Shown piece by piece: positions 12,363 to 37,765 of a DNA stretch of 64,000 nucleotides (position 1 is the first letter of the stretch; each line of letters begins with the position of its first letter). The DNA is taken from NCBI GenBank assembly GCA_029265815.1, contig JAJUGU010000006.1, positions 1 to 64,000 of the forward strand, given 5' to 3'. A model generated the notes under the pieces. It was not told where the DNA came from and made no database searches. It saw only the letters and a list, made by a program, of their open reading frames with translations. The DNA is from Anaerolineaceae bacterium. GTDB taxonomy: Bacteria; Chloroflexota; Anaerolineae; Anaerolineales; Anaerolineaceae. A program made the position numbers and the translations under genes.

Positions 12363-14216
12363 TCAGGATCTCCTTTTGCGCAATACCAAAAATAAGACCA
12401 GCAGCAACCCAGAAGTCAGACATACCAAACCCAGCGGCGATTTATAAGCGGTGCTGTGCTCCTCAGTCTTCTGAATGATGGGTACAGGAGAGGTCTTGTT
12501 TTCATAAGCGCCGAGGTCTACAACAGCATGACCGTCGCCGTTGCCGTCTTGCACGCGTGCTGCTTGGTCTAGATCCATCGCTCCCGCATCCTCCGCGGAA
12601 GGTACACCCGAATCCACGCAGGGCGAGGCGGGTTGCAGATGGTAGTCACCTGAAGCAGGATCGACAAAGCCGGGTTCCGTGTTGAAATTGCCATCGTGAC
12701 CGGTGAAGCGTGCATCGTTGAGGCGCGAGTAAGTTACAGTGGTGGGTGACTCAGAACCGAGGATCGCGTCATTGCCGCCGTTCTGCCAGAGGATGGTATT
12801 TACTACGCTTACCCCGTCAATGGTGTTGCGGGCATCGAGGGTGTTAATATTCAACCCACCCGCCCACAGGTTTTCAATGCCGTTGTTCACCAGAGTCACG
12901 TTGCTGATGGTAACATTTTTGATTTGGTTATTGCGGCTTTTTCCGTCATCACCGTGAAGCAGAATACCCGCATCAAGGCAGCCGTTGACCAGAGTGTTAC
13001 GTACGATGACGTTCTCCAGCAGGTTGTCATGCGCTCCGCCGGTGCCAGCATAAAAAGAAATCCCGTTGGCAGCGCAGTCAGAAATGATATTGCGGTCGAT
13101 CAATATATCAGTAGTGGAATTATTGTAGGCATTGTCACCTGTAGCACCGCTAAACTGGATGCCGCCCCCCGTAAACCGATTGTCGGTGATCGTCACGTTG
13201 GTAAGCCGATTCCCTGATGAATTAGCGCCGGATTCACTTAATATTTCGATAGTAACTAGTGAACCGCTCACCTGGTTTTCAGCGATGGTGATATCGCTGG
13301 TCAGGTTATCCCGGCAGTTTTCCGCACCGTCGTCGATCAGGATTGATACGCTGGTGTGTCCGCTGATGTGATTGCCTTTGATCTGGATATCACGGATCGT
13401 GTTGTGTGATAAATCAGAGAGCCCTGTGGGAGAAATGTAGATGCCAATCACTGGAGCAGACGCGGTCAACCTGTTGGAATTGATCGAAATGTTCGAAATC
13501 TCATTGTAATTTGCATCAGCAGCAAAGCCGGTGTGGATTGTGATGCCAAACCGGTAGGATTTGAGGGTATTGCCACTCAGCTCAACGTTGCGGATCACCG
13601 CGTGGTCGCGGAAATTGCCGATGAGAATCGCGCTCCAGCCAATGTTGGTGAGGATGTTATTGCGTATGGTTATGTTTTCCACAACGGAAATATCGTTTTG
13701 CGTGTTGGTGGTGATCTCTATCCCATTGGAAGTGAAGTTGCGCAGCTGGAGCCCCTCAATGACCACGTCAGATGCAGCCTGAATCTGCAATCCTTCGTGT
13801 ACCTCGCCTAAGGAATCGAGGGTGATATCGGGGACGCCGTCGTCGTTGATGTCACCATCCAGCGTGAGACTGCCGCGGTTGATGGGCGGCAGGGGTTGAG
13901 TGAGCTTAATGACCGTACCGCTTAGCGAGGGGTCAAAATTAATGGTTTCGTGGGTGCCAGTATCGGCCTGCACAGCCTGAAGCGCCTCAGGCAGCGAGAT
14001 TCCATCGGGGCCGGGGTTGGCGAGAAGGGCCGCCGGGCTGGAGAGATCACCGTTAAGTTCTTCACTGCTGTTCGTTACAGTGAGGGTGAGCCCCGGTGTT
14101 TGAGTGGTTTGCGCGTGTGTGAGGGTTATGGTCGATGGCAGCGAGATCAACAGCAACAGAACGAGCAAAGCATCGATGGGGAGCAAGACCCGTTTAATTG
14201 ACCGCTTCCCGATCAT
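12363..14216 (-). CDS. Secreted right-handed beta-helix protein with C-terminal membrane anchor
   Basis: A 617-residue exported protein. It has an N-terminal signal peptide (hydrophobic about 10-32, then THAQTTQ) and an N-terminal cap. From about residue 120 to 480 there are many degenerate turns of the form NxxxxNxIxxNxIxG, typical of parallel beta-helix (pectate-lyase-like) repeats. Next comes a segment resembling choice-of-anchor Q (YHLQPASPCVDSG, then VDLGAYE near residue 570). The C-terminus is a membrane helix followed by LRKRRS, a surface-anchoring tail. No catalytic residues can be assigned, so it may bind or cleave polysaccharide. Its RBS lies in a hairpin. Confidence 0.85.
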   Translation of the reverse strand: MIGKRSIKRVLLPIDALLVLLLLISLPSTITLTHAQTTQTPGLTLTVTNSSEELNGDLSSPAALLANPGPDGISLPEALQAVQADTGTHETINFDPSLSGTVIKLTQPLPPINRGSLTLDGDINDDGVPDITLDSLGEVHEGLQIQAASDVVIEGLQLRNFTSNGIEITTNTQNDISVVENITIRNNILTNIGWSAILIGNFRDHAVIRNVELSGNTLKSYRFGITIHTGFAADANYNEISNISINSNRLTASAPVIGIYISPTGLSDLSHNTIRDIQIKGNHISGHTSVSILIDDGAENCRDNLTSDITIAENQVSGSLVTIEILSESGANSSGNRLTNVTITDNRFTGGGIQFSGATGDNAYNNSTTDILIDRNIISDCAANGISFYAGTGGAHDNLLENVIVRNTLVNGCLDAGILLHGDDGKSRNNQIKNVTISNVTLVNNGIENLWAGGLNINTLDARNTIDGVSVVNTILWQNGGNDAILGSESPTTVTYSRLNDARFTGHDGNFNTEPGFVDPASGDYHLQPASPCVDSGVPSAEDAGAMDLDQAARVQDGNGDGHAVVDLGAYENKTSPVPIIQKTEEHSTAYKSPLGLVCLTSGLLLVLFLVLRKRRS

Positions 14217-14222
14217 GCGAAA

Positions 14223-14252
14223 TCCTTTCAGGCGCGTGTGCGCCGTTGAAAG
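14223..14252 (-). promoter_or_regulatory. Hairpin sequestering the Shine-Dalgarno of the beta-helix gene
   Basis: On the minus strand CTTTCA pairs with TGAAAG and GGCGC with GCGCC around a four-base loop, with a two-base bulge. The 3' arm contains the GAAAGGA Shine-Dalgarno located 7 bases before the ATG at 14216. This could be a translational control element or RNA thermometer; function is inferred from geometry alone. Confidence 0.5.
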
Positions 14253-14674
14253 TTGAACAAGGCCACAGGAATATTATAGCTCTACGACCGGTTGTGGATC
14301 AAAGGCGAAAAGTGTGCGTGGTTGGCATAAAGCAAATTATCTGAGAATGGAGGGTAATACTTGGTATCATCAGCGAAGGGAGAAGATGGGGGTTAGAGGG
14401 TTCAAATAGGACAGCTTCTTAGATGAAATTGGGAATTTGATTAATTGTTCTTTTAAAAAAAGATCCGTGTCATGAGGGGGGGGTAGGGTAAAGTATTAAT
14501 TGGGGAATAATCTCAATGGGAGTAATCATTCATTTTATAAATCTTCACTTATAGTTAATCAGGCTTTATTTTTATTGTCATACTAATATTTATTTTTTTT
14601 TGCAATAGGACTTTAATATGGGTTGCCACCAATCCAAGTAAAATAGAGTGAAAATAAAGAGTGGGAGATTTCTT
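14253..14674. other. Intergenic region before the restriction-modification island
   Basis: About 420 bases, becoming markedly AT-rich after 14440. It must hold the promoters of the divergent beta-helix gene and of the modification gene, but no convincing -35/-10 pair or repeat was recognised. Confidence 0.5.
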
Positions 14675-21738: not shown

Positions 21739-21905
21739 TAAAAATAAGGTTGCCCCGGTCCGGTGATACTCGAGGGGCAACAATCACGTCGGCTGCCCTC
21801 CTATCTTCCAGATCCACTGTCGGAATTGGCACCATGTCACAGTTTCCTGTTCCTGGTTGCCGAGGCTTCATCGGGCCGGTCCCTCCGCCTCTCTGGATAG
21901 AAGTG
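21739..21905 (-). promoter_or_regulatory. SAM-I (S-box) riboswitch with terminator platform upstream of metK
   Basis: On the minus strand the aptamer (about 21800-21905) reads CTATCCAGAGAGGCGGAGGG, then CCGATGAAGCCTCGGCAACC, matching the S-box core, and closes with GATAG pairing to CTATC. The expression platform is the strong stem gttgcccc/ggggcaac at 21748-21781 followed by a T-rich run before the metK RBS. Binding SAM should favour this terminator. Confidence 0.95.
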
Positions 21906-32023: not shown

Positions 32024-32941
32024 TTATTCACGCTTAATGGTGAAGGTATCAAAGTCGCGGGCTACGGAAGTATTTTCGAAAACAGCCTGAGCTTCGTTAA
32101 GGATGTCTTTGTCGCGATAACGGCGGCTGAGGTGGGTGAGCATTAGTTTTCCAGCACCGACTTGCCTGGCAAATTCAGCGGCCTGGCGCGCAGTAATGTG
32201 GGCGAACTGCCTGGCCATGTCTTTATCTTCGTCAAGGTAAGTGGCCTCCATAACAATGCCGTCTACATCTTTCAATAGATCCACAAGGCTGGCCGTTTCA
32301 CCCAGATCACCAATGGCAGCCAGGCGAGTGCCAGGACGAAATTCTCCTAAAAGCATCTCGGGGGTAATGATGCGCCCGTTTTCAAGAGTAATCGATTCGC
32401 CTCTAACCAGTTTCCCGCGCATCGGGCCGGCGGGAATTCCGAGCTCGTCAGCTTTCTCAGCAAGGAAAGGTCTGCGCCCTTTCTCTTCAAAGAGAAAGCC
32501 ATAGCAATCGGATCCCCGATGGTTAACAGGGAAAGCGGTCACAGTAAAATCGAGAGCATCGAAAATGACACCGGGCTGAATCTCGATCAGAGAAACTGGC
32601 ATTGCAGGCTTTGCCCCGCGTAACACCACATTGTATATTAGATCCCTGACACGTTCCAGGGCACTGGCTCCGCCGTAGATCTCGAGGTTGTCAATGCTTT
32701 CCCATCGCATAAAGGTGGAAAGCAAACCACCAAGGCCAAGGATGTGGTCAAGGTGGCCGTGGGTGATGAGGATGCGATTAAGGCGTTTGAATCCAATTCC
32801 AGATTGAAGGATTTGGCGCTGGGTGCCCTCACCGCAATCAATAAGGAAGCGGAATTCATCATGTTGAACCAGATAAGCAGGCAGGTTGCGTTTGGGCGAT
32901 GGAGCCGAGGCTGAGGTGCCGAGAAAAGTGATCTCAAACAA
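32024..32941 (-). CDS. rnz: Ribonuclease Z (tRNA 3'-processing)
   Basis: Zinc-dependent endonuclease that trims the 3' end of tRNA precursors lacking CCA. The 305-residue protein has the metallo-beta-lactamase core: the TSASAPSPKRN start loop of the ElaC family, THGHLDHILG near residue 60-69 giving the HxHxDH zinc ligands, a later GDLGET Asp, and HITARQAA plus a C-terminal HLSRRY His. Start is TTG 32941 with AAGGAA 8 bases ahead. The tRNA-Val gene in this window does not encode CCA, matching the need for this enzyme. Confidence 0.94.
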   Translation of the reverse strand: MFEITFLGTSASAPSPKRNLPAYLVQHDEFRFLIDCGEGTQRQILQSGIGFKRLNRILITHGHLDHILGLGGLLSTFMRWESIDNLEIYGGASALERVRDLIYNVVLRGAKPAMPVSLIEIQPGVIFDALDFTVTAFPVNHRGSDCYGFLFEEKGRRPFLAEKADELGIPAGPMRGKLVRGESITLENGRIITPEMLLGEFRPGTRLAAIGDLGETASLVDLLKDVDGIVMEATYLDEDKDMARQFAHITARQAAEFARQVGAGKLMLTHLSRRYRDKDILNEAQAVFENTSVARDFDTFTIKRE

Positions 32942-33631: not shown

Positions 33632-34591
33632 ATGAAAAAGATCATTCCGGTATTGCTTTTACTCAGTATGATTTTAGGTGGATGCAGCCTGCTGCAACAG
33701 GATTCAGGCAGTCAGACCCTCAGTGATGCAGAAATGGCCACCCGCGTTGCAGAATTACTTGCCACGATGACCACACCCACTGAAGAGATCCTCTTTCCAG
33801 CCACACCAACCGTGGGGCTTCCGACGGTGATTCTACCCACGACCACGCCGGTAGTGGTCACCACAGAACCACCAGCGGAAGAGACTCCGGAGGTGACTGT
33901 TGAGCCTGAAGTTACCAGCCAAGTTGAAATCACCAATACGCCTGAACCGACAGGAACAACAGAACCAACCGCTACTCTACCGGCCGGAGATCCGATCAAC
34001 AGGCTGGGTGAGCCAACCGGTTTTGATCCTATGGATAGCTTCCAAAAATGGGCGTGGCCAACTGATTCCGATAAATTCCTCAAAGTCACGTTTGCTGATG
34101 GTTTTATGCAGATGACAGGATTGACTTCTCTGGCGGGATGGCGACTGCCGCTCATCACACAACAAACGAATACTTATATTGAATTAACCGCCAATTCTGG
34201 CAATTGCGAAGGTAAGGACTCGTATGGCATTATTTACCGGGTGCCGGTGTTTAAGGAGCCCAACCAGGGGTACCTCTACGAAGTTACCTGCGACGGTTAC
34301 CTGCGAGTCTGGAAATGGGATGGTGAGGTACCACCTGACGGCGCAGCGGAGAGCCTGATCAACTGGAAACAATCACCCGACCTTAAGACCGGGGCTAACC
34401 AGACCAACCGCCTGGGCGTCTTGGTAGTGGGCAAGAATATGAAGGTTTACGTTAATGGTGTGTTACAGGGTGAAGCTACCAATTCATCTTTCAGTGCGGG
34501 ATTCTTTGGTGTGTTCGTAAGATCGGTCACCACCGACGATTACACGGTAAAGTTTGATGAGATGAAGTACTGGGAAAACCCGGCCTACTAG
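33632..34591 (+). CDS. Secreted lipoprotein with Thr/Pro-rich linker and laminin-G/DUF1080-like domain
   Basis: A 319-residue lipoprotein (lipobox ILGGCS near residue 20). Residues 50-120 are a Thr/Pro/Val/Glu linker like those of other surface proteins in this window. The C-terminal domain of about 190 residues has a jelly-roll-like pattern ([35 protein letters not shown]) resembling concanavalin-type or DUF1080-like carbohydrate-binding domains. RBS AAGGAGAG is good. A terminator follows 20 bases after the stop. Ligand unknown. Confidence 0.8.
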
Positions 34592-34612
34592 TGCGAGAAT
34601 CTGATGATCGTC

Positions 34613-34643
34613 AAGCGGAGAGCATCAAGCGCTCCGCTTTTTT
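34613..34643 (+). terminator. Rho-independent terminator of the lipoprotein gene
   Basis: The stem aagcggag/ctccgctt, with an 11-base loop that can pair further, is followed by six T residues. Confidence 0.85.
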
Positions 34644-34719
34644 ATTTGAAAGACATTCGTTAGTTGTGGTGCGAAAATTTGCCATTCAGGCTAAAATCAG
34701 CGGTGGAGGAAGATTGGAA

Positions 34720-35139
34720 ATGAAAAGTTTTCGCAAGGAACTGGTGATGAATGTGCCTGCGAGGCTAGGGTTTGTGAATATTACGCCACAGGTGCAGACT
34801 GCTCTCCGTGAAAGCGGTATTCAGGAGGGGCTGGTACTGGTCAACCCGATGCATATTACGGCTTCTGTTTTTATCAATGATGATGAGAACGGATTGCATC
34901 GTGATTACGAAGCATGGTTGGAAAAGATCGCCCCACACGATCCAGTGAGCCAGTACCGCCACAACGACACTGGCGAGGATAATGCCGATGCGCATATTAA
35001 GCGCCAGGTGATGGGGCGAGAGGTGGTGGTGGCTGTTACCAATGGCCGGCTGGATTTTGGCACCTGGGAGCAAATTTTCTACGGGGAATTTGATGGTTAC
35101 CGTGCTAAAAGGGTGTTGATTAAAATTATCGGAGAATGA
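34720..35139 (+). CDS. YjbQ / UPF0047 family protein
   Basis: A 139-residue protein matching the secondary thiamine-phosphate-synthase/UPF0047 family: it starts [15 protein letters not shown], with [15 protein letters not shown] near residue 45, then the conserved acidic/His segment [14 protein letters not shown] near 85-98 and ends [12 protein letters not shown]. coli YjbQ can support thiamine-phosphate synthesis weakly; the physiological role is unsettled. ATG 34720 follows GGAGG. The region downstream carries an opposite-strand riboswitch transcript that would become antisense to this gene if its terminator were read through. Confidence 0.9.
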
Positions 35140-35144
35140 ACCAG

Positions 35145-35169
35145 AATAATAAAACCGCCTGAAGCGGTT
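35145..35169 (-). terminator. Rho-independent terminator of the tandem c-di-GMP riboswitch transcript
   Basis: On the minus strand the stem aaccgc/gcggtt is followed by TTATTATT. It lies 23 bases beyond the second aptamer and 6 bases after the yjbQ stop on the other strand. Its strength may also be modulated by the aptamers. Confidence 0.75.
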
Positions 35170-35191
35170 AAAGTGAAAGGAAGGGCACTCT

Positions 35192-35296
35192 TCGGCTGCC
35201 TGGCAATCCTGGCTGTTACCTTTCTATTCGAAAATCAGCTTTAGACCCATAGCTTTGCGTCGCCGGTTTTCACCGGTTTTGCCTGTTCGGTTGCCA
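35192..35296 (-). promoter_or_regulatory. c-di-GMP-I (GEMM) riboswitch aptamer, second of two
   Basis: On the minus strand it reads AGGCAAAACCGGTGAAAACC, then GGCGACGCAAAGCTATGGGTCT, the class I c-di-GMP aptamer core, with a GAAA tetraloop capping the P2-like stem and a 3' part CAGCCAGGATTGCC. It matches the GEMM pattern GGCAAACC...GACGCAAAGC..GGGCCT. It is the promoter-distal copy; a terminator follows 23 bases on. Confidence 0.85.
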
Positions 35297-35372
35297 GTGT
35301 TTCATGGTTAATTCAAGAACCAACTTTAGATACACTGGCTTGCTTTACATGCTTTCGCATGTATCGCTATTA

Positions 35373-35465
35373 TCGGTAGTCAGGCTATCGTGGTGCATCT
35401 TTCAGCACCGTAGACCCTTGACTTTGCGCCGCCGGCTTTTGCCGGTTTTGCCTTTTCGGAGTGCA
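35373..35465 (-). promoter_or_regulatory. c-di-GMP-I (GEMM) riboswitch aptamer, first of two
   Basis: On the minus strand it reads AGGCAAAACCGGCAAAAGCC, then GGCGGCGCAAAGTCAAGGGTCT, a class I c-di-GMP aptamer. The P2-like loop is AAAA, not a GNRA loop. The 3' part is GATAGCCTGACTACCG, which resembles the P3 tetraloop-receptor side. It starts at the predicted transcript start. Confidence 0.85.
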
Positions 35466-35470
35466 TATTA

Positions 35471-35499
35471 AGAATAGCACGCCGCGCAGATAGTTTCAA
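35471..35499 (-). promoter_or_regulatory. Sigma-A-type promoter for the tandem c-di-GMP riboswitch
   Basis: On the minus strand TTGAAA (35494-35499), a 17-base spacer and TATTCT (35471-35476). The predicted start near 35464 coincides with the beginning of the first aptamer, supporting real transcription on this strand. Confidence 0.7.
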
Positions 35500-35613
35500 T
35501 AAATTTAACCATAACCCTTTTGTAATCCCAGCCTGATTTTGATAATATTTTTTTGGGCTTTAAGGTTAATTTTCCATCATTTTCTGATTTACAAAGAAAG
35601 GAGAGGTGAATAT

Positions 35614-36177
35614 TTGAAAATCGTAATTCTGGGATGGGGATCCCTGATCTGGGATCCACATGAGTTGCCTTTTATTAACCCCTGGAAAACTGATGGACCT
35701 GAACTCCCATTGGAGTTCTCGCGCCTTTCAAGAGATGGGCGGCTTACACTGGTGATTGATGAATTGAATGGTGCGATTTGTCAAACCCTTTACGCATATA
35801 GTCCCCGAGATTCTTTAAAAGAAGCGGTCAAGGATTTGCTAATGCGCGAAGGAACCTTAGACAAATGGATTGGTTATTACAATCACAGGACAAAAGAGAG
35901 TTCAATTAAGAAATATATTGAGCAAGTGAATATCAGTAATATTCTCAGCGGTTGGTGTGATCGACATGATGTAGATGGTGTTGTTTGGACGGCGCTGCTG
36001 TCAAATTTCAGCTTAAAACGAGACACTGCATTTTCGGTAGAGGGCGCGATGACCTATCTAAAAGGTCTGCAAAAAAATGTGCAGAAACATGCACTGGAAT
36101 ATTTTCAAAAAGCTCCTCACCAGATTAATACACCCCTTCGCAGGCGGGTCAAACGAGAATGGCCAGAATATCAATGA
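35614..36177 (+). CDS. Gamma-glutamylcyclotransferase-like protein
   Basis: A 187-residue protein opening LKIVILGWGSLIWDP, the glycine-rich YGSLxx-like loop of the GGCT/BtrG fold, with PLEFSRLSRDGRLTLVID following as in that group. The family uses a conserved Glu to cyclise gamma-glutamyl amines, but several members are substrate-binding only and the catalytic Glu is not certain here. I start it at TTG 35614, after AAGGAGAGG; an earlier in-frame TTG (35539) lacks an RBS. It lies about 70 bases before the solitary methyltransferase gene. Confidence 0.75.
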   Translation: MKIVILGWGSLIWDPHELPFINPWKTDGPELPLEFSRLSRDGRLTLVIDELNGAICQTLYAYSPRDSLKEAVKDLLMREGTLDKWIGYYNHRTKESSIKKYIEQVNISNILSGWCDRHDVDGVVWTALLSNFSLKRDTAFSVEGAMTYLKGLQKNVQKHALEYFQKAPHQINTPLRRRVKREWPEYQ

Positions 36178-36249
36178 TGAAATTAGCAAAAAAGGTCGTA
36201 ACCCTTTGCTATAATCAAGGGGATTAATTCTAATTTATAGAGCAATGGA

Positions 36250-37104
36250 ATGTCTCATCAGATCTACTACTCTGACAATTTATCGGTTCTCAAGGGATTA
36301 CCTTCTGAATCTGTGGATTTAATCTATATCGATCCCCCATTCAATACGGGTAAAACGCAGAGGCGCACGCAGGTAAAAACCGAACGCTCGGAAAGGGGAG
36401 ACCGCACAGGTTTCGCGGGGAACCGCTATGAGACGGTAAAGATTGGCTCCAAAGCGTATGGCGACCTGTTTGACGATTTTCTGGCGTTTCTGGAGCCGCG
36501 CCTGATTGAAGCTTATCGAGTTTTAACAAAACATGGAAGCCTGTATTTTCACATTGATTACCGAGAGGTGCACTACTGCAAGATACTATTGGATCAAATT
36601 TTTGGACGAGAGAGCTTCTTGAACGAAATCATCTGGGCGTACGATTACGGAGCACGCACGCGTCAAAAATGGCCACCCAAGCATGACAATATCCTGTGGT
36701 ATGTGAAAGACCTGCGGCATTACACTTTCAACTATGATGAGATCGAGCGTATCCCTTACATGGCACCGGGGTTAGTAGGACCAGAAAAAGCTGCAAAGGG
36801 CAAACTGCCAACTGATACCTGGTGGCATACCATTGTGGCTACCAATGGCAAGGAAAAGACCGGCTACCCAACGCAGAAACCGTTGGGGATTATTCGCCGC
36901 ATCATTACAGCATCATCAAACCCGGGTGAGACCGTGTTAGATTTTTTTGCCGGCAGCGGTACCACAGGTGCGGCATGCCTGGAGTTAGGGCGCAGGTTTA
37001 TCTTAGTGGATGACAACCCGCAGGCACTGGAAACGATGGCGAACCGTTTTGCCGGAAATCTGGATATCGAATGGATTGGATATGAACCCAAAACCAACTT
37101 ATGA
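36250..37104 (+). CDS. Solitary beta-class DNA methyltransferase
   Basis: A 284-residue site-specific DNA methyltransferase (N6-adenine or N4-cytosine). It has motif IV DPPFNTG near residue 28 and the SAM motif I DFFAGSGTTGAA near 232-240, the beta-class order. No restriction enzyme lies beside it, so it is a solitary enzyme that may act in gene regulation or protection. The 3' end overlaps the following gene by 23 bases. Start ATG 36250. The recognition sequence cannot be read from the protein. Confidence 0.9.
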   Translation: MSHQIYYSDNLSVLKGLPSESVDLIYIDPPFNTGKTQRRTQVKTERSERGDRTGFAGNRYETVKIGSKAYGDLFDDFLAFLEPRLIEAYRVLTKHGSLYFHIDYREVHYCKILLDQIFGRESFLNEIIWAYDYGARTRQKWPPKHDNILWYVKDLRHYTFNYDEIERIPYMAPGLVGPEKAAKGKLPTDTWWHTIVATNGKEKTGYPTQKPLGIIRRIITASSNPGETVLDFFAGSGTTGAACLELGRRFILVDDNPQALETMANRFAGNLDIEWIGYEPKTNL

Positions 37105-37765
37105 AGAGTTCATGCAAAAGTTGCTAGACCTTTCGAACCCGATCAACGTGGAGGGTCAACAGCGCTTTGGCATCCACGGGGAAAAGATGCTGGGAATTTC
37201 GGTCTACGATTTGAGAAAACTGGCACGCGGCATCAGAGATCATGAACTGGCGCAACAGTTGTGGGCTTCAGGGGTGCATGATGCACGTCTGCTGGCGACT
37301 ATGGTGGATGAGCCTGCAAAAGTTACGAGCGAGCAGATGATGAGCTGGACAGCGGACTTTGATTCATGGGATATTTGCGACCAGGCGACAGACAACTTGT
37401 TTATTTATGCCGATGGGATCCTGGAACTCATTCCTCAGTGGGCGCAGCGTGAGGAAGAATTCGTGAAGAGAGCAGCGTTTGCATCAATTGCAGCGATTGC
37501 GTGGCATGGTAAACAGTATGCGGATGAAGTCGTTGCCGAGTTCTTCCCATTGATCGAGGAGAACGCAGGCGATCCGCGTAATTTTGTTAAAAAAGCTGTC
37601 AACTGGGCACTGCGCAATATTGGGAAGATGCGCCCGGCGTTGCGCGGGCAGGCAGTTGCCCTGGCTCGTAAATTACTTGAACATCCGGCTGCCTCAGGCA
37701 GGTGGATCGGGCGCGATGCCTTGAAGGAATTTGAAAAGAAATTTGGAATTCAAATTGTGGAGTGA
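37082..37765 (+). CDS. DNA alkylation repair protein (AlkD-like)
   Basis: A 227-residue all-helical HEAT-repeat-like protein. Segments KMLGISVYDLRKLARGI, ADFDSWDICDQATDNLF near residue 100 and KAVNWALRNIGKMRPAL near 180 match the AlkD DNA-glycosylase family, which removes positively charged alkyl bases without base flipping. The conserved SWDICDQ Trp/Asp pair is present. ATG 37082 is inside the methyltransferase gene (23-base overlap). The stop and the next RBS overlap as well, so the DNA methyltransferase, this gene and the phosphorylase form one coupled unit. Confidence 0.88.
   Translation: MNPKPTYEEFMQKLLDLSNPINVEGQQRFGIHGEKMLGISVYDLRKLARGIRDHELAQQLWASGVHDARLLATMVDEPAKVTSEQMMSWTADFDSWDICDQATDNLFIYADGILELIPQWAQREEEFVKRAAFASIAAIAWHGKQYADEVVAEFFPLIEENAGDPRNFVKKAVNWALRNIGKMRPALRGQAVALARKLLEHPAASGRWIGRDALKEFEKKFGIQIVE

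Follow-up and report, generated by a model that had tools for sequence, protein, structure and literature searches.

Positions 35145 to 35499 of the window, the 64,000-nucleotide stretch of Anaerolineaceae DNA analysed here, carry a minus-strand array of c-di-GMP-I riboswitch aptamers, and we lean, if only slightly, towards reading this stretch as a small RNA of roughly 320 nt that binds c-di-GMP and stands alone, comprising three aptamers, with a promoter and a terminator of its own and no gene following. Riboswitches are nearly always interpreted as switches for the gene downstream. The recurrence of this array in one order beside different genes suggests that here the RNA itself is the product, and the array, as judged from sequence, belongs to a family of RNAs that occurs in Anaerolineales. 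The three units, the helix they have in common, the promoter and terminator geometry and the variety of downstream genes can be read from the sequence and its comparison with homologous arrays.

Searches with the Rfam c-di-GMP-I model (RF01051, gathering score 35 bits) placed unit A at 35372 to 35462 (71.9 bits) and unit C at 35191 to 35293 (65.4 bits), both on the minus strand, both reaching the gathering score and both within 3 nt of the two aptamers located by an earlier note made from the sequence alone. That note described a tandem array with a spacer folding into two stable hairpins, one with a GAAA loop. Both aptamers and both hairpins hold, however the count and the spacer do not: the inter-aptamer segment is, by its sequence, itself a c-di-GMP-I aptamer, the third of the array and diverged (unit B', 35294 to 35367, minus strand), so that the array is a triple one and the hairpins are P2 (GAAA loop) and P3 of B'. 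Folding of 35130 to 35466 gave a z of -3.55 against dinucleotide shuffles, of which 1 in 100 folded as well.

Searched alone, B' matched RF01051 over model positions 1-87 with 24.7 bits and an E value of 0.0018 against 4227 families, which falls short of the gathering cut-off of 35 bits. A lineage model, drawn from 35 aptamers of the same lineage (A and C among them, B' excluded), gave B' 30.6 bits when searched alone and 14.1 bits when the whole array was searched. The RF01051 score and the 30.6 bits of the lineage model rule out a random spacer. In an alignment of the 42 arrays with both ends present, three columns that we take to be the ligand-contact bases G20, C46 and A47 (Vc2 aptamer numbering) do not vary in any of the three units, and the column likewise assigned to C92 is kept in 40/42, 38/42 and 41/42 arrays for units 1, 2 and 3, respectively. 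In the window copy, all four predicted contact bases are present in each unit, so B' may still bind c-di-GMP; since it scores below the Rfam cut-off, it may also be decaying. On reading, the stems of B' appear to be kept though much of the stem sequence is altered, which argues for selection on structure. In G014, a relative of the same genus, the middle unit is intact and all three units lie above the cut-off, and when two middle units from f12 were run by themselves against RF01051, they scored 44.2 bits (cut at the 3' end) and 58.1 bits.

The promoter proposed in the earlier note, a sigma-70-type TTGAAA-N17(TG)-TATTCT with an extended -10, is present at 35499 to 35471 on the minus strand, and its -10 ends 6 nt before GCACUC (35459 to 35464, minus strand), the 5' arm of a helix closing the array and the predicted transcript start. 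Taken alone this site is at chance level, because 5 promoter-like sites were found in 34000 to 37500 against 5.6 expected. The same type of promoter, equally placed, recurs in homologous arrays: a promoter score of at least 9 was obtained for 46/47 arrays versus 4% of 842 control windows, and the promoter spacer is 17 nt in 46/47. The distance from the -10 to the CGA is 10, 11, 12 or 16 nt, greater where the helix is longer, and G014 is the exception to the common promoter pattern.

At the other end, a predicted intrinsic terminator (AACCGCUUCAGGCGGUU with a U-rich tail) spans 35145 to 35169 on the minus strand, in keeping with the terminator claimed after the last strong aptamer; its terminator-like stem runs from 35169 to 35153 and is followed by TTATTATTCT. 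Terminator-like sites in the region number 9 against 3.3 expected. Across the family, a predicted terminator lies no more than 85 nt after the array in 45/48 cases, compared with 34/267 in the control; none was found within that distance in G211, G159 and G014, the last of which has N in that stretch. As read from the sequences, the inter-unit linkers are too short for a terminator, and there is one terminator after the last unit. The tail between the closing helix and the terminator varies among arrays. With its own promoter and terminator, its compact size and the precedent of a trans-acting riboswitch RNA in Listeria (cited in part of PMC3627812), the transcript could be a trans-acting regulatory sRNA with its availability set by c-di-GMP binding, however the variable tail argues against this, as does the lack of any conserved unpaired seed-like segment outside the aptamers when the array alignment is inspected by eye, and we consider such a role improbable.

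Beyond the terminator lies the convergent yjbQ gene (UPF0047, PF01894; 34720 to 35139, plus strand), outside the element and with its stop codon at 35139 on the strand opposite the array. An unannotated small gene was looked for between the terminator and yjbQ, and that interval comprises only a few nucleotides. The next credible minus-strand gene, a 305-aa ORF at 32941 to 32024 that reads as ribonuclease-Z-like, is about 2.2 kb beyond the array, which bears out the statement that no minus-strand gene follows for more than 2 kb; shorter minus-strand ORFs in this interval, of up to 148 aa, lie opposite plus-strand genes and were not taken for genes. The window thus has no same-strand gene directly downstream for a cis-acting riboswitch to regulate.

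The earlier note offered a riboswitch-controlled antisense transcript into yjbQ as one option. The arrangement is convergent and read-through would enter yjbQ, however the terminator precedes the yjbQ stop codon, and yjbQ occurs among the first upstream or first two downstream ORFs at the window only, out of 42 arrays; inspection by eye found it beside none of seven further arrays. In five same-genus relatives (G004, G005, G008, G010 and G011), yjbQ adjoins the methyltransferase gene with neither an array nor a c-di-GMP-I aptamer, suggesting that the RNA is dispensable there. Nor was yjbQ matched in the assembly (77% complete) of G014, the only same-genus relative whose array lies at the window's locus, with lipoprotein and methyltransferase neighbours in common, the same GCACUC/GAGUGC arms and three intact units. 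As yjbQ adjoins the window copy alone among the 42, c-di-GMP-controlled antisense regulation of yjbQ is highly improbable; the neighbour survey of 42 arrays and the array-less yjbQ relatives rule it out as the main function.

The feature that joins the units is a helix between the bases just 5' of unit 1 and those just 3' of unit 3, formed in the window by GCACUC and GAGUGC (35185 to 35190, minus strand) and indicated for both arms by folding, array comparison and covariation. A closing helix of at least 4 bp is found in 46/46 testable arrays, with 3/49 left out (G204 and G394, where contigs end, and L255, where the anchor failed), compared with 17% in a random-arm control that allowed a looser offset. 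The arms are GCUC/GAGC, often extended, in most f12 arrays, GCACUC/GAGUGC in the window, G014 and G323, GGUGCAUCC/GGAUGCAUU in f14, and GCAC/GUGC in G291 and G296. Across the 42 alignment rows, both sides change in 5/6 pairs, helix cells pair in 86.8% of cases versus 79.0% in shuffles, and double-changed cells number 21, where shuffles give 7.5 and slid controls 0-8, with relatedness inflating the shuffle contrasts and affecting the slid control less. The outer two pairs are unpaired in 14/42 and 13/42 rows, and 9 pair types were observed versus 9.0 in shuffles, 332/500 of which reach 9.

When folded without ligand, the closing helix has a probability above 0.5 in 7/46 arrays (0.95 in the window), and tail bases often pair elsewhere upstream. 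In 27/39 arrays with a GCUC arm, this arm can pair instead with the GAGC of unit A, which includes the G-C of the pocket, and this pairing excludes the closing helix; judged from sequence, the alternative could represent a ligand-gated ring closure or the switch of a cis-acting riboswitch. The alternative arm pairing can be seen at the 5' end of the f12 arrays in L157-L232. Both observations tell against a purely static ring. Given this possible switch near the binding pocket and the small number of arrays that fold the closing helix unliganded, the main rival reading keeps serious weight although it is unlikely: the array would be a cis-acting riboswitch whose terminator gates the downstream gene (ruvB or others), and the window copy an orphaned remnant whose target has been lost or replaced.

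The genes around the arrays bear on this directly. Simple ORF calling on 42 arrays, the window copy and 41 others, showed 39 of them to have a downstream ORF, the first being on the same strand in 31 and on the opposite strand in 8, and ruvB, a single BLAST cluster identified as RuvB by Pfam in one member, is the first downstream gene in 22/42, all 22 in f12. This same-strand excess and the prevalence of ruvB favour cis-acting control, as do the position of the terminator directly after the array and the same-strand isochorismatase gene about 144 nt after the G014 array, for which the window genome gave 0 matches. The frequency of ruvB in f12 would be expected if the array has a cis target there or if the synteny is old. 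However, many unrelated clusters are represented among the first downstream genes, those other than ruvB being, as named from sequence, apparently MBOAT-type, response regulator, yqeY-like, thiamine pyrophosphokinase-like and amidohydrolase-like; several ruvB genes have their own TATAAT just 5' of the ATG on reading; and the isochorismatase gene, a possible ancestral target, is also present in relatives with no c-di-GMP-I match (e.g., G002, G004, G005 and G011). Convergent first genes likewise speak against a cis target: five of the eight opposite-strand calls are believed, namely purA in G236 (confirmed by Pfam), DnaJ-like genes in G375 and G377, membrane proteins in G381 and yjbQ in the window, with those in G350, G238 and G337 probably spurious, and the first downstream gene of G296 is convergent too. 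The option of a c-di-GMP-binding non-coding RNA, also raised in the earlier note, gains from the same comparison, in which a predicted promoter, three aptamers and a terminator recur beside different genes in several families.

Upstream, an HlyD-like cluster (Pfam for one member) recurs in 32 arrays, and the window, G014, G204 and G258 have a divergent first ORF, that of G258 probably being a false call. The first clear downstream gene of G028 lies about 320 nt beyond the array on the same strand, and the contig of G056 ends downstream of its array. Among 43 loci labelled as single-aptamer, a control set contaminated by array members, the first ORF is on the same strand in 35, on the opposite strand in 4 and absent in 4; some single aptamers of the order (L004, L005 and L022) also have no same-strand gene just behind them.

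The distribution of the arrays was assessed at several levels. Aptamers of the c-di-GMP-I class occur in 27/61 genomes (the window's own and 60 relatives), and 7/15 same-genus relatives have no match. A DNA search with the window array matched 176/400 genomes of the order, mostly through a single aptamer, with matches of about 220 nt also in other families. When three closely spaced units were sought by pattern, 69/400 genomes matched; a reversed control pattern matched 20 by our own count, so the raw tally proves nothing unless the matches are read. On reading, 40 were judged true triple arrays, 38 in f12 and 2 in f14, and 29 were repeats or other non-aptamer sequence. The triple arrays checked with the lineage model were confirmed to hold aptamers, and the model often skips the middle unit, probably through the dropping of overlapping matches. 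Further arrays found by eye, missed by the pattern or outside the sample, are those of G014 and G028 (both f1), G056 (f8) and, in f12, G291 and G296. A stricter pattern run against 84,980 named species gave 35 exact matches, every one with a Chloroflexi-type title (Chloroflexi, Anaerolineae, Anaerolineales, Anaerolinea or Villigracilaceae); this pattern was drawn from these same arrays, finding 32 local loci versus 40 by the looser one, and arrays of other lineages with a different consensus could therefore be missed.

Some arrays depart from the three-unit plan. Five loci of the same genus (L033, L034, L035, L038 and L039) appear on reading to hold an array of four c-di-GMP-I units, the third of them degenerate, with a terminator and then a gene for lactate/malate dehydrogenase behind it (Pfam for L033 only), and no clear closing helix was seen in them by eye. 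On the reverse strand of 1-470 in L233 (G056), a triple array has a first unit, not a middle one, that looks degenerate. A head-to-head repeated array at a contig end (L037, about 13800-14373) is probably an assembly artefact.

The closest known counterpart is merRNA of Bdellovibrio bacteriovorus, a single 445-nt RNA that harbours a c-di-GMP riboswitch and is a non-coding RNA in its own right, without a conserved ORF behind it, for which, in the portions of that paper compared here, the authors propose c-di-GMP storage and report no conservation outside the Bdellovibrio lineage (PMC3627812). In work on Bdellovibrio from 2024, the portion compared brings up merRNA a single time, noting its downregulation in stator mutants (PMC11323537). 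The window sequence, with its putative promoter and terminator and no credible ORF, would fit the same description of a stand-alone aptamer transcript without a gene behind it. It differs from merRNA, as described there, in having three tight aptamers on one closing helix and in occurring in several families of Anaerolineales.

Other multi-aptamer systems are more distant. Bc3-5, as described in part of PMC4759541, likewise has three c-di-GMP-I aptamers in tandem, however these lie in a 5'-UTR and each unit has its own expression platform, whereas the units of the window array nearly abut, leaving no platform after each aptamer, and the array has one terminator in all and no gene behind. The sections compared of a tandem riboswitch survey list 347 doublets and 12 triplets for c-di-GMP-I and place the class under multiple expression platforms, again in contrast to the single terminator seen here, giving only glycine and guanidine-II as dual aptamers with one platform (PMC9481103). 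The same sections note that one of two adjacent glycine aptamers may degenerate into a ghost aptamer (PMC9481103); B' is similar in being an adjacent and possibly degenerate unit, but the ligand class is another and B' retains its predicted contact bases. In the parts compared of a survey devoted to contiguous riboswitches, Chloroflexota is named once, as riboswitch-enriched in general, and enrichment of contiguous c-di-GMP riboswitches is reported for Thermodesulfobacteriota and Deinococcota (PMC12452182). The survey parts compared include no c-di-GMP-I RNA in which several aptamers sit on a shared scaffold, and a search of the open-licence literature found nothing on c-di-GMP-I arrays in Chloroflexi, Anaerolineae or Villigracilis.

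For the stand-alone small RNA, we infer transcription, ligand binding, cooperativity and a buffering role as follows. The promoter near 35499 to 35471 would start the transcript at the closing helix and the terminator would end it, and the predicted GCACUC/GAGUGC helix would join the start of the array to its end, closing the three units into one structure. Such a transcript looks as if it consisted of nothing but c-di-GMP pockets. Each RNA molecule could then bind up to three c-di-GMP ligands, and the common helix would couple the units. By analogy with merRNA, such an RNA would most likely buffer or store c-di-GMP. We further propose, tentatively and as a possibility somewhat short of an even chance, that these Anaerolineales-specific RNAs, with three c-di-GMP-I aptamers on one closing helix, act as a cooperative multi-site c-di-GMP sponge in which filling all pockets would close the ring. 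If true, this would add to the c-di-GMP-I class an architecture in which several aptamers share one scaffold, and the merRNA-type idea of an RNA as a second-messenger store could be tested more widely.

The window genome has four GGDEF matches, which favours the reading as a c-di-GMP-binding RNA. It also carries, on contig C9, a single c-di-GMP-I aptamer (L047, 801-877, minus strand) about 100 nt before an fn3-domain ORF, which looks like an ordinary cis riboswitch. Elsewhere in the window, a SAM-I riboswitch was identified at 21798-21903 on the minus strand (80.1 bits).
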